Assembly: GCF_000478195.2 (NCBI RefSeq) | Contig: NZ_AUZM01000013.1 | Coordinates: 1-64,000 of the forward strand | Source of the DNA: Lyngbya aestuarii BL J | GTDB taxonomy: Bacteria > Cyanobacteriota > Cyanobacteriia > Cyanobacteriales > Microcoleaceae | Reading direction: 5' to 3' | Length of the DNA: 64,000 bases | Shown: positions 14,931 to 47,914 of the stretch, one piece after another | Layout of the letters: each line of letters starts with the position of its first letter | How positions within the stretch are numbered: position 1 is the first letter of the stretch | Notes under the pieces: model-generated | Told to the model about the DNA's origin: nothing | The model's database searches: none | The model's input: the letters and a program-made list of their open reading frames with translations, nothing else | Position numbers and translations under genes: made by a program

Positions 14931-15025
14931 GGGAATTCCCCACAGTTTATTGTAGTATTTTTGATGTCACAAATAAAAAAATATTTTTTTACTCTGTGTA
15001 GATGTACCCTCGCCCCTCTTTTGGG

Positions 15026-31100: not shown

Positions 31101-31411
31101 ATTCGTCTTTGAGTTATTTACATCGTTTCCCGATTAATACTTTGAAAATTGATCGTTCTTTTGTAAAAAGGCTTAAGCCCAATTCTGAAAATACCGCGAT
31201 TATTAAAGCGATTTTGCGGCTTGCTAATGCCTTAGAAATGAATACGATTGCTGAAGGGATTGAAACTGTTTTTCAGTTGGAAAAGCTCAAGGGTTTGGGC
31301 TGTGAATATGGACAGGGACATTTGTTTTCTAAAGCTTTAGATGCTCAAAATATTACTCATCTTCTCAGTATTATTCAACGTTCATTGACTGAGGCAAATT
31401 CTGCTCATTGA
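28121..31411 (+). CDS. Membrane PAS-GAF-LOV-PAS-GGDEF-EAL cyclic-di-GMP enzyme
   Basis: This 1,096-residue protein has two N-terminal membrane spans (about 25-48 and 60-80) with almost no external loop. PAS (115-215), GAF (235-390), LOV (395-515), PAS (525-645), GGDEF (650-810) and EAL (840-1085) domains follow. The LOV motif GRNCRLLQ contains Cys445, with NYRQDGRLFWN and FIGIQ downstream, so a functional flavin photoreceptor is predicted. GGDEF is at 736-740 with RSRD as I-site; EAL is at 865-867 with DDFGTGYSS and AEGIE intact. The last EAL motif is QGHLFSKA rather than QGYLFSKP. It is a close paralogue of the genes at 18.1 and 31.9 kb; membrane anchoring is its main difference from the former. 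Confidence 0.9.
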   Translation: MQILRQVKKYFPRNSLKTETILGQAGLAMVVGSGILGTTLILWQFILIQEPITQRVQLSLTSLTLGLGILLGAIATRFISQRKVNAELETHSEIDPELSTTPPQCQPFIQERDRFFSLSLDLLCITSFEGYFQRVNPAFVTTLGYTEAELLSVPLWEFVHPDDQGATKAELAKLAQGKPSFNFENRYRCRDGDYRWLSWTSAPFLQEGLLYAVARDITEYKRSVAQLQSQIAQQATVAELGQYALSQTNVDQLLTEIATLIAQTLNVHFVKILELLPNGSALLLKAGVGWSSGLVGYAHISTASHSHAGYTLAQKQPVVVEDLRVETRFKGEPLLHNHRIVSGISVIIGEEDEPYGVLSIYSRTQRRFSGDDIHFIQAIANIIATAIARQQSTESLYLMERAINASSNGIIITDATEIDNPIIYVNAGFEQITGYSSKDVLGRNCRLLQGPKTDSSEVERLRTALLQGRECRVVIQNYRQDGRLFWNDLQVAPVFNDRGHLTHFIGIQNDITERYEAQEEVRQTRNFLQTMIDHLPVAVFVKETHRDQLGRFRLWNKACEQLFGLSAVEVLGKTVYDVFPSEQAESFHQQDQAVLEAGTVLDIPEERVETQTLGQRILHTVKVPLLNHYPDTEYLLCIGEDITKRKQAEDQLRHHAFYDTLTDLPNRALFLNRLAHSIKQVQQASGELFAVLFLDLDNFKRVNDSLGHQIGDQLLIAIARRLEGCLRSRDTLARLGGDEFTILLEQIEGVTDAIKVARHIHQQLMLPFNLSGNEVFTNVSIGIAFSCSRHEQHPEELLRNADLAMYRAKEMGKGAYAVFDTRMHRQAVERLQLETQLRRALELNEFQVYYQPIVSITTGEVIGFEALIRWLNPYKGFISPALFIPVAEEMGLIGKIGQWVLASACEQLQVWRQQFPRLKNLTVSVNLSSKQLREPDLLEQIDRVLTQTGLPSHCLKLEITESLLIDNYDQALKILRQIKARNIQLSLDDFGTGYSSLSYLHRFPINTLKIDRSFVKRLKPNSENTAIIKAILRLANALEMNTIAEGIETVFQLEKLKGLGCEYGQGHLFSKALDAQNITHLLSIIQRSLTEANSAH

Positions 31412-31869
31412 TGAATGGTTTTTATTGAATTTTGTAAATTTTGATTACAAAGTATCAACTTATTGATCTTGATCTCTCTCTGGGCTTTAAATAAGTTTTG
31501 TTGATTCGTTGATCGTTTCAATTGGAGTCAGAGTACCGATTTTCTCTCATCTCTTATCCGGGTGACACAGGAGTTCTTTCTACTTCCTAAAAGTTTAATT
31601 TATTCGACAAACTCTATTTATATGTTACAATATTAGAAGTAGATCTTAGGGGTAATCTTTAACCTTTAAGCAAATTAAATTTGATTGAGACAGTTGGATA
31701 CAACCGTTTAAACTCTATACTTCTCTATTGCTTCAGTCTGTATAAATCAATTTTATTTATTCGTTAATTTCAATTAACAAGTCTATTCTAATCTATAATT
31801 AAGTTAATATTCAGATTGGGTAAGATCAAAAACTATAGTCTCCTAAATTCAGGTCAGGGGTTAATTAAT
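31412..31869. other. AT-rich intergenic region between the second and third LOV-type genes
   Basis: 458 AT-rich bases separate two paralogous signalling genes on the same strand. No gene, palindrome or clear promoter was recognised. The size suggests the third gene has its own promoter. The frame also opens at a TTG at 31816, but the ATG at 31870 is preferred. Confidence 0.4.
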
Positions 31870-34800
31870 ATGTCAGATTTGAATTTTCTAAAATCGGTAA
31901 AAAAAATATTGTCTTCTGCTTTAGCAGCTAGTTTGATTCTCGGTGCAACGTTGATCTTCTGGCAAAATTTAAAGCAAGAGAAAAAAGCAGAATTTGAATA
32001 CAATACTCAACTCACGAAAATACATCTAAAAATAGAACTCCAAGATAAAATTAAAGATCGAGTTCTTCTCCTCAATCAAATCAGCAAACAATGGCATTTT
32101 AATCCTCCCTCCCGTCTAGAGCGAGAAGCTCAAGCCCGTTTGTTTTTAACAAATACTACAGGCTATCAAGCCATAATTTGGACGGAGAAAGATACAAATA
32201 AAAATAATAATCTGATTATCTCGAAGGCCAACAGTGAAATTCCTCCAAAAGACTTAGAATTAGCGGTAGCTGAAGGGGGAAAAATTGCTCAAATAAGCAT
32301 ACAACAATCTGATCAGTTGATTGTTAAACCTCTAATTGATACTCTTTTTAAAGAGCAGTTATTACTGGTTATTATTCCTGATTTTGAGCAAGATGAACTG
32401 CAAGAAACAACTCTTGGTATTTTAAGTGTAAATGATTGTTTGAATGAGATAAAAATACAAACGATTGATGAATATATCAACTTCCCTTTTACTGCAACTG
32501 ATCACAATGATCAGACGGTGATTTGGACATTTGTTAATCCCAACCAAACGGAATGGATTCAAGACATTGATCAAGAGCTAGATCAACAAGTTCAGGAATT
32601 GCAGATCGCCTCAAATCTAACCCGACTCACCACTCAAAACACGCCTCTTTCTGATCTGTTATTAGGAGGTGGAATGACGATTTCTTTATTAGCAGGAATC
32701 AGTACGTTTCTGGCTCAAACCTCTAGAGAAAAAAACAAACAACTCAATCAAATCAATCAAGATTTATCTGAGGAAATTCACCTAAGAGAAGCTGCCCTTC
32801 ATCAATATCAAAAAGTCGAACAAGAACGGGATTGCTTATTTTTACTCTCCCCAGATTTATTGTGTATAGCCGGATTCGATAGCTGCTTCAAGCGAATTAA
32901 CCCCTGTTTTGAAACCACACTGGGCTACACGCAAGCTCAACTTTTAGCTCAACCTCTGGTCACATGGGTACATCCAGAAGATCGAGCAGAAACCCTGATC
33001 AAATGGCAAGAATTATTAACCGGAAAATCCATTCAATTTGAAAACCGCTATCGCTGTCAAGATGATTCCTATATCTGGTTATCATGGAAAGCAACTCCCA
33101 GTCTAGAAACGAATTTAGTCTATGCAGTCGCTCGCAATATTACTCACCGTAAACAAGTTGAAGCCTTACTTCGTAGTCGAGTTCATCAACAGGCGAGTGT
33201 GGCTCAATTGGGTCAATCTGCTTTAACTCAAACCTCACTCAATGAGTTATTTACCGAAGCGGTGACTCTGATGGCGGAAGTTCTCGAAGTCGAGTATACC
33301 AAAGTCCTAGAGCTATTACCCGACGGTCAAACCTTGCGATTACGGGCGGGAGTCGGTTGGTTAGAGGGACTGGTGGGAACCGCAACAGTGGGGACGGAAA
33401 TAAACTCTCAAGCGGGTTATACTTTGCTCAGTCGTGAACCTATAATTGTTGAAGATTTACGCACAGAAACTCGGTTTAACGGGCCTGCTTTACTGCGCGA
33501 TCATCACGTGATTAGCGGAATGAGTGTGATGATTCGCCTCAAAGATCGAATTTTTGGAGTTTTGGGAGCGCATACCCGCAGCAAACAATTCTTTAGTCAA
33601 GATGATGTTAACTTTCTACAAGCGATCGCCAATATTCTAGCAACAGCGGTAGAACAGGTTCAGTCTACTGAACGTTTACAGCTATTAGAACGGGCGATTA
33701 ATTCTGCTAGTAATGGGATTATTATTACCGATCCAAACCAACCTGATAATCCGATTATTTATGCGAATTCTGCTGTTGAAAGGATCACAGGCTTTGCTAC
33801 TTCAGAAATTATTGGTCGTAACCCTCGGTTTTTTCAGCAAAATAACCGTAATCAACCGGGGATTGATGAATTAAGAAAAGCGATTGAACAGGCTCGCGAA
33901 TGTAATGTCATTTTACAAAATTACCGTCTTGATGGAACTCTGATTTGGATTGAACTTTATATCTCGCCTGTATTTAATGATGTTGGAGAGCTAACTCATT
34001 TTATTGGGGTTCAAAATAATATTACCGAACGCCGACAAACAGAAGTAGCTTTACAAGCTTCAGAGGCTCGTTTGCGGGGAATTTTAGATATTGCTCAAGA
34101 TGGGATTATTTCGATTGATCAACAAGATAGAATTCAACTGTTTAATCAAGGTGCGGAACAAATTTTTGGATATTCCTCAGAAACAGTGATTGGTCAGCCT
34201 TTAGACCTTTTAATTCCTCAACAGTATCTTCAAACGTATTATTCAGAAAATCTTGATCAGTCTTTGAATAAACCATTAGAAATTATCGGTCGTCGTCAAA
34301 ATGGAACTGAGTTTCCGGCAGAGGCTTCTGTTTCTAAATTGGAGTTAGCAGAGGGAATATTTTTTACTATTATTTTGCGTGATATTAGCAACCGCAAGCA
34401 AGCTGAGATAGATCTGTTAGAGAGTCAAAACCGTCTGAGTACAATTGTTACGGCAATATCTGATGCGTTAATTGTGGTTGATTCTGATGGAATTATTCGT
34501 TTTATTAATCCGGCGGCGGAGTCTTTGTTTAACCGTTCTCATTCAGAGCTATTGGGCTACTGGTTTGGTTCGTTATATGGGAAACTGGGTGAAGCAACGG
34601 AAGTTAATATTGTAGATATTAAAGGAAACTTGAGCATGGCAGAAATGCAAGTGGTGAACATTATTTGGGAGGGTAAACCTGCAACTTTAGCTTCTCTGCG
34701 AAATGTCACTGAACGTTATCAAGCGATGCAACAAGTTCAGCAAACTCGTAATTTTCTCCAAACTTTAATTGATCACTTACCTGTTGCAGTCTTTGTGAAA

Positions 34801-36840
34801 GAAGGGAAATCTGAACAATTTGGGCAGTTCACATTTTGGAATAAAACCAGTGAAAAATTATTTGGGTTAACCAGCGAACAAGTAATCGGAAAAACGGTAC
34901 ATGAGTTGTTTCCGCCTGAGCAAGCTACACGGATGATTCAACAAGATCAAGAAGCGTTTAACTGGGGATTGATGCTTGATATTTCCGAAGAAATTGTTCA
35001 GAGTAATAGTTTAGGAAATCGTATTTTACATACGGTGAAAGTACCGCTTTATGATGATGAAATGGAACCGGAACATTTGCTGTGTATTTGTGAAGATATC
35101 ACCGAACGTCAGCAAGCGGAAGCTCAATTACGAGAAAATGAACAGTTTTTACAAAGTATTTATCAAGGGGCGGCTGTTTCTATTTTTGTGGTTGATGTTT
35201 TAGAAAATGGAGACTTTCGTTATGTCGGTTTAAATCCGATTCACGAACAGCTTACCCAATTCACAACTACACAACTGAAAGGAAAAACACCCGAACAGAT
35301 TTTACCGCCTTCCTATGCTAAAGTTGTACGTCAACACTATATCGATTGCGTCACAGCTAAAAAGACAATTAGCTACGAAGAAATGATGCCCTTTCAAGAG
35401 AGTATTTCTTATTGGCTGACTCAGCTTACCCCGATTTGCGATCGCAATGATCACATTTTTAGAATTGTAGGAACCAGTATTAATATTACAGAACGCAAGT
35501 TAGCCGAAGAAAAACTGCGTCATAATGCCTATCACGATTCTTTAACCAACTTACCCAATCGAGCCTTTTTTATGGAGCGTTTGCAGGAAGCAATTCACCA
35601 AGTTAAAATTCAAGAAGAATATTTATTTGCCGTTTTGTTTTTTGATTTAGATGATTTCAAATATATTAATGATAGCCTCGGACACGCCGTTGGAGATCAA
35701 CTATTAATCGCTCTCACCTCTCGCCTCAAAAGCTGCTTACGAAAAACTGATATTTTAGCCCGTTTTGGGGGAGATGAATTTACAATTTTGTTAGGAGGAA
35801 TTCAACAAATTGATCAAGTTATTAAAGTTGCTCAAAGTATTCAACAGGAATTAAACTTACCGTTTGTGTTAGGGAGTCATCAAGTTTTTACCAATGCTAG
35901 TATTGGGATTGCGTTAGTCACGGCTGACTATCAACACCCTGAAGAAATATTACGGGATGCTGATATTGCGATGTATTCAGCAAAAGCGCAAGGACAAGGA
36001 AAATCAGCAATTTTTAATCGTCAGATGCACTTAAAAATGCTTGAACGCCTCCAACTTGAAACTGATTTACGTCAAGCAATTGAACAAAAACAATTTCAGG
36101 TTTATTATCAACCGATAGTTTGTTTAAAAACTCATAAAATCACTGGATTTGAAGCCTTAATTCGCTGGCAACATCCCGATGGTAATTGGATTTCTCCTGC
36201 TAAGTTTATTCCGATTACTGAGATCACTGGACTGATTGTAGAAATTGGTCAATGGGTGTTATATCAGGCTTGTTTACAAATGAAAACTTGGCACGAACAG
36301 TTTCCTGATTTCCCGAATTTAACAATCAGTGTGAATTTATCAGGGCGTCAGTTGCGAGAACCCGATTTAGTCGATAAAATTGATGATATTCTCCAAGAAA
36401 CAGGTTTAAAACATGACTGTCTCAAGCTAGAAATTACTGAAAGTATGTTAATGGATAATCCATCTGCGGTTAAAACTCTATTGAAGCAGATCAAATATCG
36501 TCAAATCAAACTCAGTTTAGATGATTTTGGCACAGGTTATTCTTCATTAAGTTATTTACATAGTTTTCCGATTGATACACTCAAAATTGATCGGGCGTTT
36601 GTGGTTCATGCTAATTCGGAATTTAAAAATAAAGCCATTACCCAAGCGATTGTTACTCTCGCCCAGAGTTTAGGAATGGAAGTCATTGCCGAAGGAATTG
36701 AAACCACAGATCAATTAGAACAACTCAAACAGTTAAAATGTGAATTTGGACAAGGTTACTTTTTCTCCAAACCCCTCGCCCAAGCTGACATTGAAAAGTT
36801 GCTTCAATCTACTCAAAAACTCCCCATAGAAAAACAATAA
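31870..36840 (+). CDS. Membrane multi-PAS GGDEF-EAL protein with cysteine-less LOV-like domain
   Basis: This 1,656-residue protein starts at the ATG preceded by TCAGGGG; an upstream TTG at 31816 lies before the first membrane helix and is less likely. Two membrane spans (about 15-35 and 260-280) enclose a 225-residue external CHASE-like sensor. A PAS (about 320-420), GAF (440-590), LOV-like domain (600-720), four further PAS domains (to about 1210), GGDEF (1215-1380) and EAL (1405-1650) follow. In the LOV-like domain the motif reads GRNPRFFQ: Pro652 replaces the photoactive Cys. The FWN Asn is also lost (reads WIEL), while the NYRLDG Asn and FIGVQ Gln remain. GGDEF 1300-1304, RKTD I-site, EAL 1428-1430 and DDFGTGYSS are intact. 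It is the largest of three paralogues here. Confidence 0.9.
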   Translation: MSDLNFLKSVKKILSSALAASLILGATLIFWQNLKQEKKAEFEYNTQLTKIHLKIELQDKIKDRVLLLNQISKQWHFNPPSRLEREAQARLFLTNTTGYQAIIWTEKDTNKNNNLIISKANSEIPPKDLELAVAEGGKIAQISIQQSDQLIVKPLIDTLFKEQLLLVIIPDFEQDELQETTLGILSVNDCLNEIKIQTIDEYINFPFTATDHNDQTVIWTFVNPNQTEWIQDIDQELDQQVQELQIASNLTRLTTQNTPLSDLLLGGGMTISLLAGISTFLAQTSREKNKQLNQINQDLSEEIHLREAALHQYQKVEQERDCLFLLSPDLLCIAGFDSCFKRINPCFETTLGYTQAQLLAQPLVTWVHPEDRAETLIKWQELLTGKSIQFENRYRCQDDSYIWLSWKATPSLETNLVYAVARNITHRKQVEALLRSRVHQQASVAQLGQSALTQTSLNELFTEAVTLMAEVLEVEYTKVLELLPDGQTLRLRAGVGWLEGLVGTATVGTEINSQAGYTLLSREPIIVEDLRTETRFNGPALLRDHHVISGMSVMIRLKDRIFGVLGAHTRSKQFFSQDDVNFLQAIANILATAVEQVQSTERLQLLERAINSASNGIIITDPNQPDNPIIYANSAVERITGFATSEIIGRNPRFFQQNNRNQPGIDELRKAIEQARECNVILQNYRLDGTLIWIELYISPVFNDVGELTHFIGVQNNITERRQTEVALQASEARLRGILDIAQDGIISIDQQDRIQLFNQGAEQIFGYSSETVIGQPLDLLIPQQYLQTYYSENLDQSLNKPLEIIGRRQNGTEFPAEASVSKLELAEGIFFTIILRDISNRKQAEIDLLESQNRLSTIVTAISDALIVVDSDGIIRFINPAAESLFNRSHSELLGYWFGSLYGKLGEATEVNIVDIKGNLSMAEMQVVNIIWEGKPATLASLRNVTERYQAMQQVQQTRNFLQTLIDHLPVAVFVKEGKSEQFGQFTFWNKTSEKLFGLTSEQVIGKTVHELFPPEQATRMIQQDQEAFNWGLMLDISEEIVQSNSLGNRILHTVKVPLYDDEMEPEHLLCICEDITERQQAEAQLRENEQFLQSIYQGAAVSIFVVDVLENGDFRYVGLNPIHEQLTQFTTTQLKGKTPEQILPPSYAKVVRQHYIDCVTAKKTISYEEMMPFQESISYWLTQLTPICDRNDHIFRIVGTSINITERKLAEEKLRHNAYHDSLTNLPNRAFFMERLQEAIHQVKIQEEYLFAVLFFDLDDFKYINDSLGHAVGDQLLIALTSRLKSCLRKTDILARFGGDEFTILLGGIQQIDQVIKVAQSIQQELNLPFVLGSHQVFTNASIGIALVTADYQHPEEILRDADIAMYSAKAQGQGKSAIFNRQMHLKMLERLQLETDLRQAIEQKQFQVYYQPIVCLKTHKITGFEALIRWQHPDGNWISPAKFIPITEITGLIVEIGQWVLYQACLQMKTWHEQFPDFPNLTISVNLSGRQLREPDLVDKIDDILQETGLKHDCLKLEITESMLMDNPSAVKTLLKQIKYRQIKLSLDDFGTGYSSLSYLHSFPIDTLKIDRAFVVHANSEFKNKAITQAIVTLAQSLGMEVIAEGIETTDQLEQLKQLKCEFGQGYFFSKPLAQADIEKLLQSTQKLPIEKQ

Positions 36841-37204
36841 ACTCAAAAAACAGAATCAACTTTAGCCGCCTAAATTCCAATCTGTTCAACAGCAAAGCAT
36901 CCGCTAATTCACCCCATAAATTCCAGCAGAGCGGGGAGTTTGAGAGTTTAGTTCCACCCAAAGTTAGGAAGTTAGGGGGTAAAATCATACCCATAATCAA
37001 CAACACCTGATATTTAAAGTTTTGTGTATTATTGACAATTTTGGCATGGCATAGGGTAGGATTTGAGCCAGAACAAGAGATCAGGTGCAAACTCAGAAAT
37101 ATAGAGCAAAAACAGTTAATCTTTCTTCTCATTTTCTGCGTTGAAAGGTGATATTGCTTGTTACTGAAAACCATTGTCTGTTGTCATTGTGGGGGAGTGT
37201 AATC
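36841..37204. other. Intergenic region upstream of the haemagglutinin-CHAT gene
   Basis: 364 bases. It contains one candidate promoter and no recognisable RNA gene. An open frame on the minus strand across this region is not supported: it overlaps the end of the GGDEF-EAL gene and has no family features. Confidence 0.4.
37031..37061 (+). promoter_or_regulatory. Candidate promoter of the haemagglutinin-CHAT gene
   Basis: A perfect TTGACA (37031-37036) is followed after 19 bases by TAGGAT (37056-37061). The spacer is longer than ideal. It would give a leader of roughly 135 bases before the ATG at 37205. Confidence 0.35.
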
Positions 37205-40200
37205 ATGATTTTAATTCGCTTTTTTTCTCCAGTTTTATCCGTATTACCTATTACACTTTTTAGCAGTTTACCCGCTTTTGCAGTTCCCTCCCAACCCACA
37301 GAAAATTTTGCTGAAAATTCTGATACTTTTTATCCATTTTCTACTGTTCCGGGTTCTGAAATTCTCCTCGCCCAAGCCATTACCCCCGCAAATGATGGTA
37401 CGGGAACGGTGGTTACGCCCGAAGGAAATCACTTCAATATTGAGGGGGGAACACGTTCGGGAGATGGAGAGAATTTATTTCATAGTTTTGAGAAGTTTGG
37501 ACTTGATGAAAGTCAAATTGCTAACTTTTTATCTAACCCTGAAATTCGTAATATTTTAGGTCGAGTTATTGGGGGTGATGCCTCTTTTATTAACGGTTTA
37601 ATTGAGATGACAGGAGGCAGTTCAAACCTGTTTTTAATTAATCCATCGGGGATTTTATTCGGGCCGAACTCTCAGTTAAATCTTCCCGGTGATTTTACCG
37701 CAACTACAGCCAACGGTGTACAGTTTGGTACTGAATGGTTCAACGCCGAAGGGTTAAATAACTATGAAATATTAATCGGAAATCCAACGGGGTTTGCCTT
37801 TACAATGGCGACTCCGGGGAGTGTGATTAATTTAGGAACGTTAGCGGTTGAACGGGGAAATAATTTAACGTTATTAGGTGGAACTGTTGTTAACGCTGGA
37901 CAACTTTCAGCCCCCGAAGGACAAGTAATTATTACTTCCGTTCCCGGTGAAAATTTTGTTAGAATTAGTCAACCCGGACAACTTTTAAGTTTAGAAATTA
38001 AACCCCTAATTCCGGGTAGCAGTCAACCGAATAATGGGTCGATTCCAATTACCAGTTTACCCGATTTATTAACCCGAGGCGTTAGCGGCTACGACATGGC
38101 GGCAAAAGTCAACCCCGATGGAAGTGTAGAGTTAACCGTTTCAGAGACAACAATTCCCGTCAATTCTGGGACAACTATTGCGTCTGGAGAGGTGGATGTT
38201 TCCGGGGAAACAGGCGGAACCGTTGGGGTTTTTGGGGAAAGAATTGGGGTAGTTGATGCTAATATTAACGCCTCTGGAACCAATGGGGGCGGTACGGTTT
38301 TAATAGGCGGAGAGTATAAAGGACAGGGAGATGTTCCCAATGCGTTGAGGACGTTTGTTAATCGCAATACGATTATTAATGCGGATGGTTTATTAACAGG
38401 AGATGGCGGACGGGTTATCGTTTGGGCGGATGAAGTAACGGGGTTTTATGGGAATGTTAATGTTCGGGGTGGGAGTGAGTTAGGAAACGGGGGATTTATA
38501 GAAGTTTCAGGGAAAGAAACGTTAATTTTTGATGGTATTGTTGATACTTCAGCAGTCAATGGAAGTTTTGGGACACTGTTACTTGATCCAAGAAATATTA
38601 CAATTAATCAAGACCAAACTGCTAATCTAGGTGATGCTGAACTACCTGATATTTTGACAGGAGACTTTGGAGACACAGACATAACAGTTAGTAAAAATGT
38701 ACTTGAAAGTCAAACGGGAACAGTTATTTTAGAAGCCACAGAAAATATAACAGTTGAAGATGGAATTTCTCTCAATTTTGCAGCAGGGGAAGGTTCCATT
38801 ACTTTTACAGCAGATGCCGACAATAATAACACTGGTAACTTCTTAATGGATCAAACTCAATTCATTAATACTTCGGGACGAGATCTCACGATTTCAGGAG
38901 TAGAAATTAGAACTGGAGGGTTATTTACTCAGGGGGGAAATATTATTCTAACTGCGGGAAATGACACAGCAACTCAAGGCGGTTCTATTCAAATTAATCG
39001 TCAAATCAACACATCGGCTGAAGAAGGAACGAATAATATTGGGGGAAATGTTGAACTAAATGCTTTGGGAAATCAAGCCTCAATTAATGTTGATGAGCAA
39101 GATTTGGCTGCTATCTTTACAGGAGGAGGAGAGGTTAATATTACTGCGGGAAATAATACAGCAGAACAAGGGGGTTCTATTCGAGTTAATGAGGGAATTA
39201 ACACAAGACGACTTGAAGAAGAGACTGATAATAATATTGGGGGAAACGTTAATCTAACTGCTTTGGGAAATCAAGCCTTAATTAATCTTGATGGTCAAGG
39301 ATTTGCTGCTATCTTTACACCAGGAGGAGAGGTTAATATTACTGCGGGAAATGAGACGGCAGAACAAGGGGGTTCTATTCAAGTTAATGATGGAATTCGC
39401 ACGGATGCTGATAATAATATTGGGGGAAATGTTAATCTAACTGCTTTGGGAAATCAAGCCTCAATTAATCTTGACTCAATTAATCTTGATGATCCAGGAG
39501 TTGCTGCTATCCTTACAGGAGGAGGAGATGTTACTCTAGAGTCTTTAGGAAATAATAGCAGAATTCAGATTCAAGTCGATGATGATGGCAACCCTATTAA
39601 TACAGATAGTGCTGCTATAGATACAGAAGGAGGTAATATTACCTTTAGTAGTCGCCAAAACTCAACAGCTTCTTCTAACGGTGCAACACTAATTATTGAG
39701 AGTAATCAAACCTTTAATGCAGGTACGGGTACGATAGAATTTAATAATGTTGGAGTCAATGCTGGTCGAAATAACACTCTCACTCTAACAGCAGATGAAA
39801 TTAACTTTGATATTAGTGGTAATAATCGATTAGTTTCAGGAAGTGGAAATTTCATCTTAGAACCCTCTACTTTAGATCAAGAAATTACTCTCGGAACAAA
39901 TAACGACTCTGATAATACTAGCCTCAATTTATCTGAAAATGACCTCATCAGCTTAATTAAAAATGGCTTTAGTTCGATTACAATTGGACGGGAAGACCTT
40001 AATGCTAATATTAATATTCAAGGAGATATTGAGTTTTCCGACCCTGTAATCTTAGAAGCGGGTAACGGTTCAATTTTATCTCTTAATAATAGTGGAATTA
40101 CCGGAACAGATAATGCTTCAATTACATTAAATGCAAACCGTGAAATTAATATTGGAAACCTTCAAACAGATGGAGAAATTATTGAGTTAAATGTCAATAA

Positions 40201-43200
40201 TGGTGCAATTATAACAGGAAATATTTTAACCAATGGTCAAGACTTTACTCTCTCAGTTGGTGATGGGTTTACAACTGAATCAACTCTAGTTCAAACCGGG
40301 AATATTAACACTTCATCAACAACAACAAACGGTGGAAATATTACCCTAGATGTTCAGTCGGGGAGTGGAACAGCCACCCTAGAAACAGGTAATTTAATCT
40401 CGACTTCTACGAATAGCCAGACAGGAACAATTAATATTAATGCAGGTTCTAATCCTGGAAGTAGTACAATTACAATTGGTAATATTAATCCTTCAATTCA
40501 AACAGGTCAGGATGCTGATATTTCTTTCACCAGTATTACTGCAAATGATGGTACTATAACTCAGACTGCGAATGGTTCAACAATTACGTTAAATAACAAT
40601 CAAACTTTTAACGCTGGAACCGGAAACATTACCCTTGATAATGTTGGTATTGCTACGGGAAATAATAGCCTAAATCTCACCGCAGATGAAATTAACTTTG
40701 ATGTTGATAATAATCGCACAATTTCAGGAACAGGAAATTTAACCCTACAACCCTTTACCGAAGAACGAGGAATTAATGTCGCCAATTCTGACAATAGCGA
40801 TACTACAACCCTGAATATAACTCAAGCTGAAATTAACTTAATTCAACAAGCTGAAATTAACTTAATTCAAAATGGGTTTAACTCGATTATTATTGGACGT
40901 GATAACAGTAGCGGAACCATTACGGTTGTTAATCCCGTTACTTTTAATGACCCTTTAACCCTACAAACCCCACTGGGTGATATTACCGTTGATGGAACGT
41001 TAACCGGACTTGATAATGCTTCGATAACTTTAATCGGTTTAGGCGAAACCACCACACTCAATGCTGATATTATTACGGCTGGAAATCCCATTACAATTAA
41101 TGATAGCGTTGTTGTTGGAGCAAATACTGTTAATCTTGATACGACTAATTTGAATCAACCGGGTGCTAATATTACCATTCTTGGAACCGTTAACGGAAGC
41201 AATCCCAATACAGAAACATTAAATCTCACCGCAGGGGTTGGAGATGTTAACTTTAATAATTCAATTGGTAATTTAGTTCTCCTCTCTCAACTGCAAATTA
41301 ATAGTGCAGCTAATGTGACATTTAGCAATGCGTTAACCACAGATAATATTACTTTAACGAGCGATGAAATCAACTTCTTGGGAGGAGAAAATTCAGTTAC
41401 CGGAAACTCTATCACTCTACAACCGAATACTGTTAATAATATTGCCATTGCAGGTTCAACCGATACCGAAACAGCAACACTCAATCTGACAACTACTGAC
41501 TTAGCCGCGTTAAATAATTTCGATTCTATCTTTATTGGACGGTTTGATTTTAGTGGAAATATTACAATTGAAAACAATGTAGAATTTTCTGACCCAATTA
41601 CTCTTGAAGCGGGAACAGGTATCATTAGTTCAATTAATAATGGGGGAATTATTGGAACAGATGATGCTTCAATTACCCTAAATGCAGATAGTGAAATTAA
41701 TGTCGGTCAACTCTCAACTGAAGGCGAAGCAATTAACTTAACTTCTATTGGAGAAACTGGACAAGTCTCCACAGGAAATATTACCACAAATGGCGGTAAT
41801 CTTAATATTTTAGCGGGGAACAACTCTACAGAAAATTTAACCCCAAATTCGATTACAACCGGAACAATTAATACATCTTCTAATACTGAAAATGGCGGAA
41901 ATATTAATCTAGATGTTCAGTCAGGAAGTGGAACAGCGACTCTAGAAACAGGTGAAATTAACTCAAATTCTATTAGTGGAAGTGGAGGAGTTGTTAATCT
42001 GAATGCGGGTACAAATACGGGAGTGAGTAACATCACCGTCGGAAATATTAATTCATCGGTTAATAACGGTCTCGGCGGAAATATTACTTTCAGTAGCTTT
42101 ATCGGACGTGAACAGCAAGAGTTGAGTTTAGATGGTGCAAATTTAACTTTAAATAGCAACCAAACTATTAACGCCGGAACCGAAACCATTACCTTTAATA
42201 ATGTGGGTGGGGTCGCCGGAAACAATAATTTAACTCTCACCGCAGATGAAATTAATTTTGACATTAGTGGCAATAATCGCACCATTTCGGGAAGCGGAAA
42301 TTTAATTCTACAACCCTTTACCGTTAATCAAAATATTGTGATTGATGGAACAGACAGCGAAGCGTCTACAACCCTAGATTTAACCTCAAATGAACTTGCA
42401 TTACTTGAAAATGGTTTGAGTTCAATTACCATCGGAAGAATCGACTCATCGGGTACAATTACGGTTGCAAATAGCGTGACATTTAATGACCCGATAACCT
42501 TACAGTCTCCCAACGGTTCTATTGATATTGGCGGGATAATCACCGGAATTGATGACGCTTCTATTACTCTCAATGCTAACTTAATTAATCTCAGCGAAGC
42601 GATTACAACGAATAACCAAAATATTACCATTCAAGGTAATGAAATTAACCTCAGTGGAAACACAACACTGGATACTGATAATACAGGTGGCGGCGATATT
42701 TCAATTAACGGAAATGTTAACGGAAATTCAGATATTAGCCTAACAACTGGAACCGGAAATATTAGTTTTTTAGGGACAATAGGGGAAACTCAACCCGTTG
42801 GAAATATTACCGCGAATAGTAGCGGAATTACTGACTTTAGCGGAACAGTTAACGCCAATAGTTTGACAACAAATACAGGCGGTTCTACTCAACTTAACGG
42901 AAATGTAACTACAACAAATAACCAAACTTATAACGATGCGGTGAACTTGTTGGGTGATGTGACATTAGATAGTAGTAATGGGAATGGAAATCTAAACTTT
43001 ACATCAACAATTGACGGAAATTTTAACTTACAACTCAACTCTGGTACAGGTAATATCACGCTCGGAACTATCGGAGAGAATCAAGCTTTATCTTCTCTAA
43101 CCGTTAATAGTCAAGGTGAAACTAATTTAGGTGGAAATATTACCACAAATGGTTCCGATGGTGTTGACTTTGAAAACGCTGCAACTGTTCAATTAAGTGA

Positions 43201-46200
43201 TAATATTACTATTGATACAAGTTCAGGAAATGGAATAATTAACTTTAGTCAAGCAAGCATTAATGGAAATTTTGACCTAGAACTTAATGCAGGTAGCGGT
43301 GAGATAAACTTAGGAACAGTCGGAAATAATACCCCGCTTAATTCTTTGACTCTTACAACCACTGGTTTAACGACTTTAAATAATAATCTAACAACAAACA
43401 ATAATATTGACTTCACTCAAGCAACAGGGGGAACTCAACTCAATGCTGATGTTATTATTACCAGCAATAACGGGAATATCTCATTTGAAAATAGTCCGAT
43501 AACCGGAATAGGAAATCGCTTAACTCTGGATACAACCGGAGAAATTTTTATGGATAATGTTGGCGAAAATAATAATGAAATAAGAGGAATTACCATCACC
43601 AATGCGAACATTGTTAATCTATTCGGTAATATCTATACAGATGGCGGTATTAACTTTCCCAGTGTAACAACAATTAACCTCAATAGTGATACAGTTACTC
43701 TCGAAACCGATAGCGATAATGGAAATATTAACCTTTCGGATGCTTCTGTTGAAGGAAGTGGCGGATTAATTATTAATGCAGGAAATGGTCAAGTTAATTT
43801 AGGTACTTTTGGTAATAGTATTCCCCCTGAAAGTTTAACTATTAATACATCTGGCTTAACCACTCTCAATGGTAATCTCACAATTAATAATAATATTGAT
43901 TTCACTCAAGCTACAGGTGGAACACAACTTAATGCTGATGTGCTAATTAATAGCAACACCGGAAATATTTTGTTTGAAAACAGTCCAATCACTGGCACCG
44001 GAAATAACTTAACTCTAGATACATCAGGGAATATTTCACTTGATAATGTTGGTCAAACAGGTAATGAATTAGGAGAATTAACGATTAGTAACGCCAATAT
44101 CGTTGATTTATTTGGCGATATTTTTACGATTAATAATCTAGATTTTACGGGTGCATCAACTGTTAATATTGCGGAGAGTTCAGTAACACTGCAAACCAAT
44201 AGCGGAAATGGAAATATTAACTTTTCAGGTGTTCCAATTGAAGCCACCGAACCTGAAAACCAACTCATTCTTAACGCCGGAAGTGGTAACATTACTTTCA
44301 ACAGAGTAGGAACTAATATTCCTCTAAATTCTTTATTGATTAACACCGACGGTCAAACGAATTTAGGCGGAAATATTAATCTCAGTGGCGTTGATGGGAT
44401 TACCTTTGAAAATGCGACCAATATTGTTTTAATTAATGATGTAATTATCAATACAACTTTAGGAAATGGAAGCATAAACTTTAATAATGCTACCATTAAT
44501 GGTAATTATAACTTGGAACTCAATGCGGGAACGGGTAATATTACATTGGGAACAGTCGGAAATAATATTCCTTTAAATCTTTTATCCATTAACACCAGTG
44601 GATTAACGAATTTAGGCGGTAATATTACAATCAGTGGAACTGATGGAATTACCTTTGAAAATGCAACAAATGTGGTTTTAACCAATGACGTTCAGATTGA
44701 TACAAGTTTTGGAAATGGAATTATTAATTTTGGAAATGGAACAGTTGATGGTAATTTTAATTTACAACTGAGTGCGGGTAATGGTAATATTATCTTGAGT
44801 ACATTCGGAGACAATGAGAGTCTGAATTTACTCGATATTCAAACCACAGGAATAACAACCCTTAACGGTAATCTCACAACAAACGAGAGTATTAACTTTA
44901 CTCAAGCAACGGGTGGAACTGAACTTAATACTGATGTTATCATTAATAGTAATAATGGCAATATTGATTTTAATAATAGTCCAATCTCAGGAACAGGTAA
45001 TAATTTAATCCTGAATGCACCCAACGGAAATATTATTTTAGATGCAGTCGGAAGTTCAGGGAATGGGTTAGGTGAAATTACAGTTAATAGCAGTGGAATT
45101 ACTCAATTTAACGCCACGGTAAACGCCAGTAGCTTAACCACCGATACAGCAGGAATAACTGAACTCAACGCTGATATAACGACAACAGGAGAGAATGGTC
45201 AAAACTACGGTGATGCAGTGAACATCTTAAATAATATTACTTTAACAGGTGACGAAATTAACTTTAATAATAATGTCTCCGGTGAGAATACCAGCTTAAC
45301 GTTACAGCCTTTTAGTTCAAGTTTTCCTGTTGAAATTGGAGGAAATAGCAATAACAACTTGAGTGTTTTAAATTTAACAAATACTGAACTAAACTTTTTA
45401 CAAAATGGCTTCAACTTAATCACAGTTGGGAGCAATAACACCGGAACAATTACTGCTGCTGGAAATGTATCATTCCGCGACCCCGTTATCTTGCAGTCGG
45501 GAACAAGTTTTATTGAAACAACCGGATTTACAATTACAGGAACGGATAACGCAGCCATTACTCTCAACGCCAATCAAAATATTAATGTCAGTAATATTAT
45601 TAATCCTAACGGTAATATTAACTTCACGACAAATAATGGTTCAATCAATGCTAATAATTTATTGGGTCGTTCGGTTAATTTAACCACAGGAGGAGGTAAT
45701 ATTACTCTCAATTTGAATCAAAATTTTTCTTTAAATAATCCCAACGTTCAGACCAATGGGGGGAATTTTAGTATTAATAGTCCGGCTTTAATTCAACTGT
45801 TAGGAAGTGGAAATATTCAAACAACAGGAGGAAATATTACCCTATCGGCAACTAATATTAATAGTGAAATTGATTTTAATTCTAATAATTATCAAGGTCA
45901 AGGCGGTAACATTAATTTAACTGCAACAGAGGGAACAATTTCTACAGCAAATTTGAATAGTTCTGGCTTAACAGGAGGTGATATTACGGTTGTCGCTCCG
46001 ACTGCAATTATTACCGGAGAAATCAATAGTAGTGGTAGTATTGATGATGGTGGAAACGTAATTATTGACCCGGTTGGTGATGTTGAAGTTGAGTTGATTA
46101 ACGCTCAAGGTGGGCCGAATGGTCAAGGGGGAGATGTACTTCTTGAATCAACAGGTGGATTTGTTCGAGTAACTCGATCTTTTATCGATCAAAATAACAT

Positions 46201-47914
46201 CAATGCCAGTATTTCTACAGCAGGTGGACAGGGAGGAGGTTCGATTACAATTCGACATCAAGGGGGGTTAGCAAATGAACCAATTGCTAGCTTTGAAGTG
46301 GGAAATACCAACCTAACTGAGAATGATAATGGTACAGCCGCAGCTATTACAACAGGTGAATTTACGATTAATTCTGACAACTCTTTTCCTGAATCTTTTA
46401 CAGTGGGAAATATCGCAATTCAAACTGATGATATAGATGTAACACCAACCCCAACACCAACCCCAACACCAACCCCAACACCAACCCCAACACCAACCCC
46501 AACACCAACCCCAACACCAACCCCAATTGAACCCACTCAACCCGAATTTCCTGGCGATATTTTACCGCGTCAAGACCCTGTTAACCCTCTACCCATTTCT
46601 GCTAGTCTTCCTTGTAGTCCGGTGGATGCAGGAGTTTTAGCAGTTGAACAGGGATATACTCAAGATTTTGAAGAATATTGGGGAATATCTGCGAGTAAAT
46701 CGGCAAAAGGTTTACTAGAAACTTGTGATGCTTTGAGTCAAATTGCCGGAATTACAGGGATTAAACCTGCTGTTATTTATGTTAACTTTGTTCCGGTTGA
46801 ATATGACATAGAAGCTCAAGAAAATCAGGTCAATGTGATTGATTCTCCCTCAGAAAAACCCGCTCAAAATGGTCGTTATCAGCTCGAATTAGTAATGATT
46901 ACTGCCGAAGGTCAACCGATTCGGAAACGAATTGCGGGGATCACTCGCGATCAAGTTTTAAAACAACGAAACTTTTTCTTTAGAGAAATTTTTCCAACGA
47001 GTCGTAGAGGTAGTTTTTTACCCTATGCTCAACAATTTTATCAATGGTTGATTGCTCCATTACAAGCTGAGTTAGAGGCACAAGAAATTAATAATCTAGT
47101 CTTTATTATGGACGAAGGATTACGTTCTTTACCTTTAGCCGCTTTACATGATGGTGAACAATTTTTAATTGAAAAATATAGTGTGGGACTTGCACCGAGT
47201 TTGACATTAACTGAAACTCGTTATAGTGATGTTAAACAAGCTCGTGTTTTGGCGATGGGTTCAACTGAGTTTCCCGCAGATTCTAGATTAAATGACTTAC
47301 CTGCGGTATCAGCAGAAGTCAATATTATTACGGATAATTTATGGAATGGAGAATCATTTTTAAATGAAAACTTTACAATTGAAAATTTAAAACAAGAACG
47401 AGAGGCGACACCTTTTGGTATTGTTCACTTAGCAACTCATGCAGAATTTAGGGCGGGACAACCGAATAATTCTTACATTCAATTTTGGGATAATAAACTA
47501 AGACTTGATCAAGTCCGAGATTTAGGATGGAATCAACCTCCCGTGAAATTATTAGTCTTAAGCGCTTGTCAAACGGCTTTAGGAGATCGTGAAGCAGAGT
47601 TAGGTTTTGCAGGTTTTGCGGCGCAAGCAGGAGTAGAATCTGTGATCGCAAGTTTATGGAAAGTCAATGATCAAGCCACATTTGCACTCATGGTTGATTT
47701 TTATCAACAATTAACCCAAGCGCCAATTAAAGCCGAAGCCTTAAGACAAACTCAAATTGCTTTATTAAGAGGAGAAGTTCGGATCGAAGGTTCACGTCTA
47801 ATTTTACCGGATCGAGAAATAACTTTACCTCCAAAATTTGCTAACTCTGGAATTGAAATATTTTCTGACCCTCAATACTGGGCTGCATTTACAATTATCG
47901 GTAGCCCTTGGTAG
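37205..47914 (+). CDS. Secreted haemagglutinin-type exoprotein with C-terminal CHAT protease
   Basis: The 3,569-residue product begins at the ATG at 37205. A GTG 57 bases upstream opens the same frame but would bury the signal peptide. Residues 1-26 are a signal peptide ending in PAFA. Residues about 55-350 form the two-partner-secretion/haemagglutinin N-domain (VVTPEGNHFNIEGG, SNLFLINPSGILFGPN at about 139-154). A beta-helix-like region of Asn/Gly/Thr-rich repeats extends to about 3,070, then a Thr-Pro linker (about 3,080-3,108). The C-terminal 350 residues are a CHAT domain of the caspase-like clan, with His3412 in LATHAEF and Cys3455 in LSACQTALG as the dyad and GFAAQAGVESVIASLW after it. 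It is presumably exported through a TpsB pore that is not in this window. Haemagglutinin-CHAT fusions occur in cyanobacteria; targets are unknown. Confidence 0.9.
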   Translation: MILIRFFSPVLSVLPITLFSSLPAFAVPSQPTENFAENSDTFYPFSTVPGSEILLAQAITPANDGTGTVVTPEGNHFNIEGGTRSGDGENLFHSFEKFGLDESQIANFLSNPEIRNILGRVIGGDASFINGLIEMTGGSSNLFLINPSGILFGPNSQLNLPGDFTATTANGVQFGTEWFNAEGLNNYEILIGNPTGFAFTMATPGSVINLGTLAVERGNNLTLLGGTVVNAGQLSAPEGQVIITSVPGENFVRISQPGQLLSLEIKPLIPGSSQPNNGSIPITSLPDLLTRGVSGYDMAAKVNPDGSVELTVSETTIPVNSGTTIASGEVDVSGETGGTVGVFGERIGVVDANINASGTNGGGTVLIGGEYKGQGDVPNALRTFVNRNTIINADGLLTGDGGRVIVWADEVTGFYGNVNVRGGSELGNGGFIEVSGKETLIFDGIVDTSAVNGSFGTLLLDPRNITINQDQTANLGDAELPDILTGDFGDTDITVSKNVLESQTGTVILEATENITVEDGISLNFAAGEGSITFTADADNNNTGNFLMDQTQFINTSGRDLTISGVEIRTGGLFTQGGNIILTAGNDTATQGGSIQINRQINTSAEEGTNNIGGNVELNALGNQASINVDEQDLAAIFTGGGEVNITAGNNTAEQGGSIRVNEGINTRRLEEETDNNIGGNVNLTALGNQALINLDGQGFAAIFTPGGEVNITAGNETAEQGGSIQVNDGIRTDADNNIGGNVNLTALGNQASINLDSINLDDPGVAAILTGGGDVTLESLGNNSRIQIQVDDDGNPINTDSAAIDTEGGNITFSSRQNSTASSNGATLIIESNQTFNAGTGTIEFNNVGVNAGRNNTLTLTADEINFDISGNNRLVSGSGNFILEPSTLDQEITLGTNNDSDNTSLNLSENDLISLIKNGFSSITIGREDLNANINIQGDIEFSDPVILEAGNGSILSLNNSGITGTDNASITLNANREINIGNLQTDGEIIELNVNNGAIITGNILTNGQDFTLSVGDGFTTESTLVQTGNINTSSTTTNGGNITLDVQSGSGTATLETGNLISTSTNSQTGTININAGSNPGSSTITIGNINPSIQTGQDADISFTSITANDGTITQTANGSTITLNNNQTFNAGTGNITLDNVGIATGNNSLNLTADEINFDVDNNRTISGTGNLTLQPFTEERGINVANSDNSDTTTLNITQAEINLIQQAEINLIQNGFNSIIIGRDNSSGTITVVNPVTFNDPLTLQTPLGDITVDGTLTGLDNASITLIGLGETTTLNADIITAGNPITINDSVVVGANTVNLDTTNLNQPGANITILGTVNGSNPNTETLNLTAGVGDVNFNNSIGNLVLLSQLQINSAANVTFSNALTTDNITLTSDEINFLGGENSVTGNSITLQPNTVNNIAIAGSTDTETATLNLTTTDLAALNNFDSIFIGRFDFSGNITIENNVEFSDPITLEAGTGIISSINNGGIIGTDDASITLNADSEINVGQLSTEGEAINLTSIGETGQVSTGNITTNGGNLNILAGNNSTENLTPNSITTGTINTSSNTENGGNINLDVQSGSGTATLETGEINSNSISGSGGVVNLNAGTNTGVSNITVGNINSSVNNGLGGNITFSSFIGREQQELSLDGANLTLNSNQTINAGTETITFNNVGGVAGNNNLTLTADEINFDISGNNRTISGSGNLILQPFTVNQNIVIDGTDSEASTTLDLTSNELALLENGLSSITIGRIDSSGTITVANSVTFNDPITLQSPNGSIDIGGIITGIDDASITLNANLINLSEAITTNNQNITIQGNEINLSGNTTLDTDNTGGGDISINGNVNGNSDISLTTGTGNISFLGTIGETQPVGNITANSSGITDFSGTVNANSLTTNTGGSTQLNGNVTTTNNQTYNDAVNLLGDVTLDSSNGNGNLNFTSTIDGNFNLQLNSGTGNITLGTIGENQALSSLTVNSQGETNLGGNITTNGSDGVDFENAATVQLSDNITIDTSSGNGIINFSQASINGNFDLELNAGSGEINLGTVGNNTPLNSLTLTTTGLTTLNNNLTTNNNIDFTQATGGTQLNADVIITSNNGNISFENSPITGIGNRLTLDTTGEIFMDNVGENNNEIRGITITNANIVNLFGNIYTDGGINFPSVTTINLNSDTVTLETDSDNGNINLSDASVEGSGGLIINAGNGQVNLGTFGNSIPPESLTINTSGLTTLNGNLTINNNIDFTQATGGTQLNADVLINSNTGNILFENSPITGTGNNLTLDTSGNISLDNVGQTGNELGELTISNANIVDLFGDIFTINNLDFTGASTVNIAESSVTLQTNSGNGNINFSGVPIEATEPENQLILNAGSGNITFNRVGTNIPLNSLLINTDGQTNLGGNINLSGVDGITFENATNIVLINDVIINTTLGNGSINFNNATINGNYNLELNAGTGNITLGTVGNNIPLNLLSINTSGLTNLGGNITISGTDGITFENATNVVLTNDVQIDTSFGNGIINFGNGTVDGNFNLQLSAGNGNIILSTFGDNESLNLLDIQTTGITTLNGNLTTNESINFTQATGGTELNTDVIINSNNGNIDFNNSPISGTGNNLILNAPNGNIILDAVGSSGNGLGEITVNSSGITQFNATVNASSLTTDTAGITELNADITTTGENGQNYGDAVNILNNITLTGDEINFNNNVSGENTSLTLQPFSSSFPVEIGGNSNNNLSVLNLTNTELNFLQNGFNLITVGSNNTGTITAAGNVSFRDPVILQSGTSFIETTGFTITGTDNAAITLNANQNINVSNIINPNGNINFTTNNGSINANNLLGRSVNLTTGGGNITLNLNQNFSLNNPNVQTNGGNFSINSPALIQLLGSGNIQTTGGNITLSATNINSEIDFNSNNYQGQGGNINLTATEGTISTANLNSSGLTGGDITVVAPTAIITGEINSSGSIDDGGNVIIDPVGDVEVELINAQGGPNGQGGDVLLESTGGFVRVTRSFIDQNNINASISTAGGQGGGSITIRHQGGLANEPIASFEVGNTNLTENDNGTAAAITTGEFTINSDNSFPESFTVGNIAIQTDDIDVTPTPTPTPTPTPTPTPTPTPTPTPTPTPIEPTQPEFPGDILPRQDPVNPLPISASLPCSPVDAGVLAVEQGYTQDFEEYWGISASKSAKGLLETCDALSQIAGITGIKPAVIYVNFVPVEYDIEAQENQVNVIDSPSEKPAQNGRYQLELVMITAEGQPIRKRIAGITRDQVLKQRNFFFREIFPTSRRGSFLPYAQQFYQWLIAPLQAELEAQEINNLVFIMDEGLRSLPLAALHDGEQFLIEKYSVGLAPSLTLTETRYSDVKQARVLAMGSTEFPADSRLNDLPAVSAEVNIITDNLWNGESFLNENFTIENLKQEREATPFGIVHLATHAEFRAGQPNNSYIQFWDNKLRLDQVRDLGWNQPPVKLLVLSACQTALGDREAELGFAGFAAQAGVESVIASLWKVNDQATFALMVDFYQQLTQAPIKAEALRQTQIALLRGEVRIEGSRLILPDREITLPPKFANSGIEIFSDPQYWAAFTIIGSPW
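38951..39535 (+). repeat. Three tandem ~195-base repeats in the exoprotein gene
   Basis: Units starting ACTGCGGGAAAT at 38951, 39143 and 39341 (periods 192 and 198) encode near-identical segments with ITAGN, QGGSI, NNIGGN, ALGNQA and GGGEVN blocks. High DNA identity points to recent unequal recombination. Confidence 0.8.
43120..45000 (+). repeat. Second group of long repeats in the exoprotein gene
   Basis: The block FTQATGGTQLNADV with its downstream NSPITGTGN segment recurs near 43400, 43890 and 44890. An interleaved block (NLGGNI, DGITFENA, LNAGTGNITLGTVGNN) recurs near 43125, 44355 and 44615. These are higher-order repeats built from two alternating modules of the beta-helix. Confidence 0.75.
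46441..46525 (+). repeat. Microsatellite encoding a Thr-Pro linker
   Basis: About seven copies of a 12-base unit (CCAACACCAACC) encode a run of Thr-Pro dipeptides between the repeat region and the CHAT domain. Loss or gain of units keeps the frame, so the linker length can vary by slippage. Confidence 0.85.

Follow-up and report, generated by a model that had tools for sequence, protein, structure and literature searches.

The window considered here, the whole stretch of 64,000 nucleotides from contig NZ_AUZM01000013.1 of the cyanobacterium Lyngbya aestuarii BL J, contains a gene, tpsA-chat, whose product joins the parts of a two-partner secretion (TPS) adhesin to a caspase-like peptidase domain of the CHAT type. 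An earlier note on this DNA had described one gene made up of a signal peptide, a TPS domain, repeats, a Thr-Pro linker and a CHAT domain, and the translation together with the profile matches bears out this description. The complete order is signal peptide, TPS domain, beta-solenoid repeats, cap, Thr-Pro linker, pre-CHAT segment and CHAT domain (Table 1).

The N-terminal part has the features of a TpsA protein of a type Vb secretion system. A Sec signal peptide is recognised by inspection (MILIRFFSPVLSVLPITLFSSLPAFA, followed by VP after the predicted cleavage site). The TPS domain is not detected when the whole repetitive protein is submitted to hmmscan, and the PF05860 match comes from the first 400 residues alone; the predicted structure of the domain has a mean predicted local distance difference test score (pLDDT) of 88, and rows 1–23 of its Foldseek search are all TpsA proteins, among them EtpA, HMW1, HxuA, FHA and HpmA. 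The stalk that follows is repetitive from about residue 460 to residue 2960, with a unit of approximately 82–83 residues plus larger duplicated blocks, as judged by self-similarity. The profile of the cap that closes it is found outside the fusions almost exclusively in broken fusions, and the linkers of the relatives are rich in TP, DP, EP or P. The cysteines C3137 and C3174 were considered as a disulfide anchor and set aside, as they are not conserved among the relatives.

Both motifs of the catalytic dyad, HxATH and SACxT, are present in the C-terminal module at the residues given in the earlier note, and the His and the Cys are invariant in 88 of the 88 aligned modules, which argues that catalysis is under selection. 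The AlphaFold2 model of this part of the protein (pLDDT 92) matches the Craspase TPR-CHAT protease with a Z score of 27.6 over 325 residues and separase with a Z score of 24.6, and the gingipain fold is also among the structure matches (RgpB, Z 18.6); the CHAT profile had no true match among PDB sequences, and the likeness becomes visible by fold search. The pre-CHAT segment aligns with the CHAT1-like first half of the protease region of Csx29. In CHAT proteases with proven dyads the two residues are 615/658 (Csx29, 43 residues apart) and 585/627 (Scalindua TPR-CHAT, 42 residues apart; PMC10028731, PMC9729208), and the spacing of 43 residues in the window protein is close to these. The comparison of the dyad with active CHAT proteases, proposed in the earlier note as a check on its own reading, was run, and the reading withstood it in fold (Craspase and separase), in conservation and in spacing. 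The peptidase is thus intact by motif, spacing and predicted fold, and its proteolytic activity is predicted.

Table 1. Features of the tpsA-chat gene, with positions in the window.
Feature	Position	Strand	Basis
Shine-Dalgarno-like gggggag ahead of ATG	37191..37197	+	sequence
tpsA-chat gene, 3569 residues, intact	37205..47914	+	open frame without stops
Putative Sec-type signal peptide, residues 1-26 (...SSLPAFA/VP)	37205..37282	+	sequence pattern only
TPS domain, residues 65-259	37397..37981	+	PF05860 2.3e-43; TIGR01901 5.9e-22; Foldseek
Long beta-solenoid-type repeat stalk, residues 260 to ~2947	37982..46045	+	self-similarity; first part predicted all-beta
Best-kept pair of the ~82-83-residue repeat unit	44305..44792	+	Tandem Repeats Finder period 249, 76% matches; protein repeat spacing
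Conserved cap closing the stalk, residues 2948-3074	46046..46426	+	profile match in 54/58 fusions
Thr-Pro linker, 12-bp tandem repeat, 7.2 copies	46441..46526	+	tandem-repeat analysis
Conserved pre-CHAT segment, residues 3132-3272	46598..47020	+	alignment; model aligned over residues 1-438 with TPR-CHAT
CHAT peptidase domain, residues 3273-3567	47021..47905	+	PF12770 3.7e-74; AlphaFold2 pLDDT 92; Craspase/separase fold
Catalytic His3412, in HLATHA	47438..47440	+	motif; conserved 88/88
Catalytic Cys3455, in LSACQT	47567..47569	+	motif; conserved 88/88

The window protein is a member of a large family and not a lone oddity. The source genome (6.86 Mb in 437 contigs) gives 46 CHAT, 9 TPS and 5 ShlB matches, two of the latter being one gene on overlapping contig ends (C42 and C117), and it encodes three TPS-CHAT fusions, namely the window gene and those on contigs C27 (1351 residues) and C90 (1799 residues), which share 49% identity in the C-terminal module. 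Among species genomes, at least 468 loci match this module, the best 80 of which are all cyanobacterial, and 60 intact fusions of 888–3947 residues were collected from cyanobacteria, a recurrence that chance cannot account for; across the whole family the module is 42–54% identical to that of the window protein. A search made with the TPS domain, independently of CHAT, in 59 genomes placed 25 of 28 fusion-type TPS domains in one frame with CHAT, and the three exceptions are all genes of a single genome (G039): an ambiguous base that splits the linker repeat, a contig end and one undecided case. The fused TPS domains form a single clade, with a Shimodaira–Hasegawa-like approximate likelihood ratio (SH-aLRT) support of 99, and the three rows that look unfused within it stem from genes interrupted by a contig end or with a split frame. 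The C90-type gene lies near coaE at locus L046 and at 22 other loci, in Microcoleus and Planktothrix relatives and in the window genome, an old and stable position. Locus L046 also holds a gene for a radical-SAM-type protein with an apparent internal intein (10178–12145), and an exported trypsin-like serine protease is often encoded near TPS-CHAT genes (L110:6427–7617 and 18 other loci), mostly in relatives of Microcoleus, which may be plain synteny.

According to the earlier note, neither a TpsB pore nor an immunity-like gene adjoins tpsA-chat, and this holds: the next gene, 1 bp away on the opposite strand, is a convergent gene for 4-hydroxyphenylpyruvate dioxygenase, there is no small gene directly 3′ of tpsA-chat, and the window as a whole contains no TpsB gene, although adjacency is the usual arrangement in type Vb systems, where it is not strictly required. 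When the genome was searched for a matching pore, as the earlier note had suggested, two were found, on contigs C10 and C52, each with POTRA_2 and ShlB domains. In the tree of TpsB proteins two groups are separated by a branch with 100/100 support. The first holds all nine fusion-linked pores together with C10 and C52; eight of the nine adjoin fusions (L062, L069, L070, L072, L114, L136, L138 and L139), and the ninth is the sole ShlB protein of genome G056, whose sole TPS protein is a fusion. The second consists of the pores that adjoin unfused TpsA genes and includes C24 and C117 of the window genome. The prediction that genomes with a fusion would have a fusion-type pore, and that genomes whose TPS proteins are all unfused would lack one, was made before further TpsB genes were added, and such a pore is present in 12 of 12 sampled genomes with a fusion and in none of the three with TPS proteins but without a fusion (G005, G030 and G042), the assignment of each pore using only its position relative to the 100% branch. 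Group-shuffle statistics on the enlarged set are uninformative, because their labels mix both clades. A DUF928 gene lies near both C10 and C52, and the latter also has a CHAT-CHASE2 protein nearby. A cognate type can therefore be assigned to the window protein from sequence, with C10 or C52 as its predicted partner.

CHAT peptidases are also linked to the other, unfused class of TpsA proteins (class S), which end in a tail of roughly 100 residues framed by two cysteines; most of these tails have a TGRGG-type motif (L144–L164). A CHAT gene is found within 10 kb of 11 of 21 unfused TPS genes, when 0.83 are expected from circular shifts (p ≤ 5e-5), and within 15 kb of 7 of 14 ShlB genes, when 0.78 are expected. 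These tests cover five chromosomes (four in single contigs and one in a large contig), two of them with approximate lengths; the neighbouring TPS genes of one cluster are not independent, and the circular shift preserves such clustering. Clusters of TPS, ShlB and CHAT genes with DUF928 and CHASE2 genes occur at L147, L149, L152, L153 and L154, and ShlB, CHASE2 and DUF928 genes surround a fusion at L069, L070 and L138; these examples were picked for display, and the linkage statistics were not so picked. By a simple rule, 11 of 16 TPR-CHAT proteins of TPS clusters have a signal peptide, as against 51 of 589 other genes, and CHAT modules of the fused type also stand alone with a signal peptide (L078, L098, L102, L108, L116 and L142). 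Taken together, the linkage of CHAT to both TPS classes suggests a peptidase that serves the TPS pathway specifically, whether in cis or in trans. At two of the clusters TpsA and TpsB are themselves fused, one frame encoding both the TPS domain and the ShlB barrel (L153:2767–7119, 1451 residues, and L154:4895–9322, 1476 residues), followed by TPR-CHAT, DUF928 and CHASE2 genes, and at L054 (14883–17927, contig C1) the TPS domain is interrupted by a stop and the TPR-CHAT gene beside it is split, which may reflect decay of the locus or a sequencing error.

As for the other genes of the window, three related PAS/GAF-GGDEF-EAL proteins are encoded around the suf genes (18090–21062, 28121–31411 and 31816–36840), the third directly upstream of tpsA-chat. 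A functional tie to these cyclic di-GMP genes was considered and dropped, with related GGDEF/EAL proteins at just two other loci (L056 and L102), and the arrangement is taken as chance. Very large TPR-glycosyltransferase genes (products of 2123 and 910 residues) lie at 8559–17758.

The domain order, the conservation of an intact dyad, the match between two classes of TpsA and two of TpsB, and the recurrent linkage of CHAT with TPS are all read from the sequences, and from these we infer secretion, a periplasmic location of CHAT, a cleavage target and a regulatory role of CHASE2 and DUF928. The reading that we prefer, and to which we give an even chance, is that of a type Vb secreted fibre that carries its own caspase-like peptidase, a self-releasing or maturing adhesin. 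The protein would be exported by Sec, its TPS domain would be recognised by a fusion-type TpsB (C10 or C52), and the repeat stalk would be threaded to the cell surface as far as the cap and the proline-rich linker. The C-terminal CHAT domain would then fold, most likely on the periplasmic side, and hold the fibre in the pore as a latch, until the activated peptidase cuts its own linker or that of a neighbouring copy and the adhesin is released or matured. The C-termini of HMW1 and HxuA stay in the periplasm (PMC5422565) and CdrA is released by periplasmic LapG, which cuts its C-terminal tail (PMC6156197), and because of these precedents a latch with a cut in the linker is favoured, a step that we infer. 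In class S, an exported TPR-CHAT protein encoded alongside would act in trans on the TpsA protein with the two-cysteine tail; having no TPS domain, it should stay in the periplasm. This tail, which resembles the disulfide-bearing periplasmic anchor of HMW1 and HxuA (PMC5422565), is by analogy a possible periplasmic anchor and a candidate site of cleavage by CHAT. As CHAT is fused to one class of TpsA and encoded beside the other, it would most simply act on TpsA. Membrane CHASE2 and exported DUF928 proteins may supply the signal, and a more specific version, in which a class-dedicated peptidase stays silent until the CHASE2/DUF928 sensor pair triggers release of the fibre from the filament, as signal-controlled self-shedding, is put forward only tentatively and seems the less likely form.

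Several points weigh against the self-releasing adhesin. With its few cysteines, the CHAT domain could pass through TpsB and act outside, no cleavage motif shared by the linkers of the relatives was found, and the window gene does not adjoin its predicted TpsB. The link to CHASE2 and DUF928 is seen at unfused loci and at the fusions L058, L062, L069, L070, L075 and L138, and not at the window locus. The fusions (class F) were collected with CHAT as the query, and the TPS search in 59 genomes is alone in being free of that bias.

The closest competitor of this reading is a surface-displayed protease, in which the whole protein is threaded out and CHAT, at the tip of the stalk, acts on extracellular or neighbouring-cell substrates in the manner of LepA or the gingipains. 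An enzyme on display would be well served by a long stalk and a flexible linker, TpsA proteases are known (LepA; PMC5422565), the fold match to RgpB fits, and the idea stands because nothing fixes the side of the membrane on which CHAT resides; we nevertheless find it rather doubtful, since the same type of CHAT occurs alone with a signal peptide and TPR-CHAT proteins are encoded beside unfused TpsA, in both cases without a TPS route out, and the existence of such exported proteins favours the periplasmic site. It appears improbable that CHAT, in the way proposed for HetF, signals stress or differentiation by cutting other envelope proteins in the periplasm, with the adhesin part merely as an anchor. 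In Nostoc/Anabaena the CHAT protein HetF is required for heterocysts to form and has a part in cell division (PMC8406250), and the source genome has CHAT matches in abundance (the 46 counted above), but CHAT is conserved together with the stalk, the cap, the linker and the matching type of TpsB, and for this reason secretion matters to it. The earlier note had proposed a contact-dependent or self-processing system, and here only its second half survives, as a candidate. Polymorphic toxin systems do include caspase-like domains among their C-terminal toxins (PMC3482391), and CdiA proteins, those of contact-dependent inhibition, share the same secretion pathway. Delivery of the C-terminus into neighbouring cells is nevertheless rejected here as very improbable, as the C-terminal module is conserved and not variable (most relatives were found by that module, and the CHAT-independent TPS search agrees), the VENN motif is present neither in the window protein nor near the C-terminus of 60 fusions, no immunity-like neighbour or downstream family is conserved, the window gene having a convergent housekeeping gene beside it, and the coaE-linked copy keeps its position across genera.

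The individual domains are known and visible in public annotation, and the TPS-CHAT class is apparently undescribed: literature searches of openly licensed PMC papers found no description of TPS-CHAT or of a linkage of CHAT, DUF928, CHASE2 and TPS. Two reports may concern such proteins. The peptide SLSLLGGTVV, from a water extract, was assigned to a CHAT-domain protein of Nostoc NIES-2111 (PMC9895726), and as this string is located in the TPS domain of the fusion L138, a TPS-CHAT protein has probably been detected, a weak indication given by a single peptide; in Nostoc 7120, a phage-resistant mutant was traced to a protein whose N-terminal domain is of the filamentous-haemagglutinin type and which the authors list under cell surface (PMC10811720). 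Known TPS systems do not, as a rule, encode their own maturation proteases (PMC5422565), and the present genes probably define a widespread class of cyanobacterial two-partner systems in which a protease, fused or encoded alongside, trims or releases the secreted protein. Across the cyanobacterial phylum, TPS systems come with a caspase/separase-fold peptidase, either as part of the secreted protein or as the product of a neighbouring gene, along with a TpsB class that matches and recurrent DUF928 and CHASE2 genes. CHAT proteases, often discussed in connection with cell death and defence, gain a plausible housekeeping role in the release of surface proteins, and how mat- and bloom-forming cyanobacteria adhere and disperse becomes directly testable.

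Among the known systems, polymorphic toxins with caspase-like domains (PMC3482391) are likewise secreted repeat proteins, but they have a variable toxin tip, an immunity gene and a pretoxin motif, all absent from TPS-CHAT. HetF and the other cyanobacterial TPR-CHAT proteins belong to the same family, PF12770, although HetF is not known to be a TPS protein and is found at midcell and at cell-cell junctions (PMC8406250). The closest solved folds are those of Csx29, the TPR-CHAT protease of Craspase, and of separase, with some 310–325 residues aligned, the same dyad and a spacing close to that of Csx29; both differ in being cytosolic or nuclear, controlled by RNA or the cell cycle and without secretion domains, and the identity is 12–15% only. 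EtpA, HMW1, FHA and HxuA share the signal peptide, a TPS domain of the same fold, a long beta-solenoid and a ShlB/POTRA_2 partner in the genome, whereas their C-termini are a disulfide anchor or a prodomain and that of the window protein is a caspase-fold peptidase, with no TpsB adjacent. LapG is a protease in its own right, with a different fold, while in TPS-CHAT the peptidase is fused or encoded next door. The pair CdrA/LapG of Pseudomonas aeruginosa offers the functional parallel, in which a peptidase that cuts the C-terminal part of a TpsA protein frees the fibre (PMC6156197).
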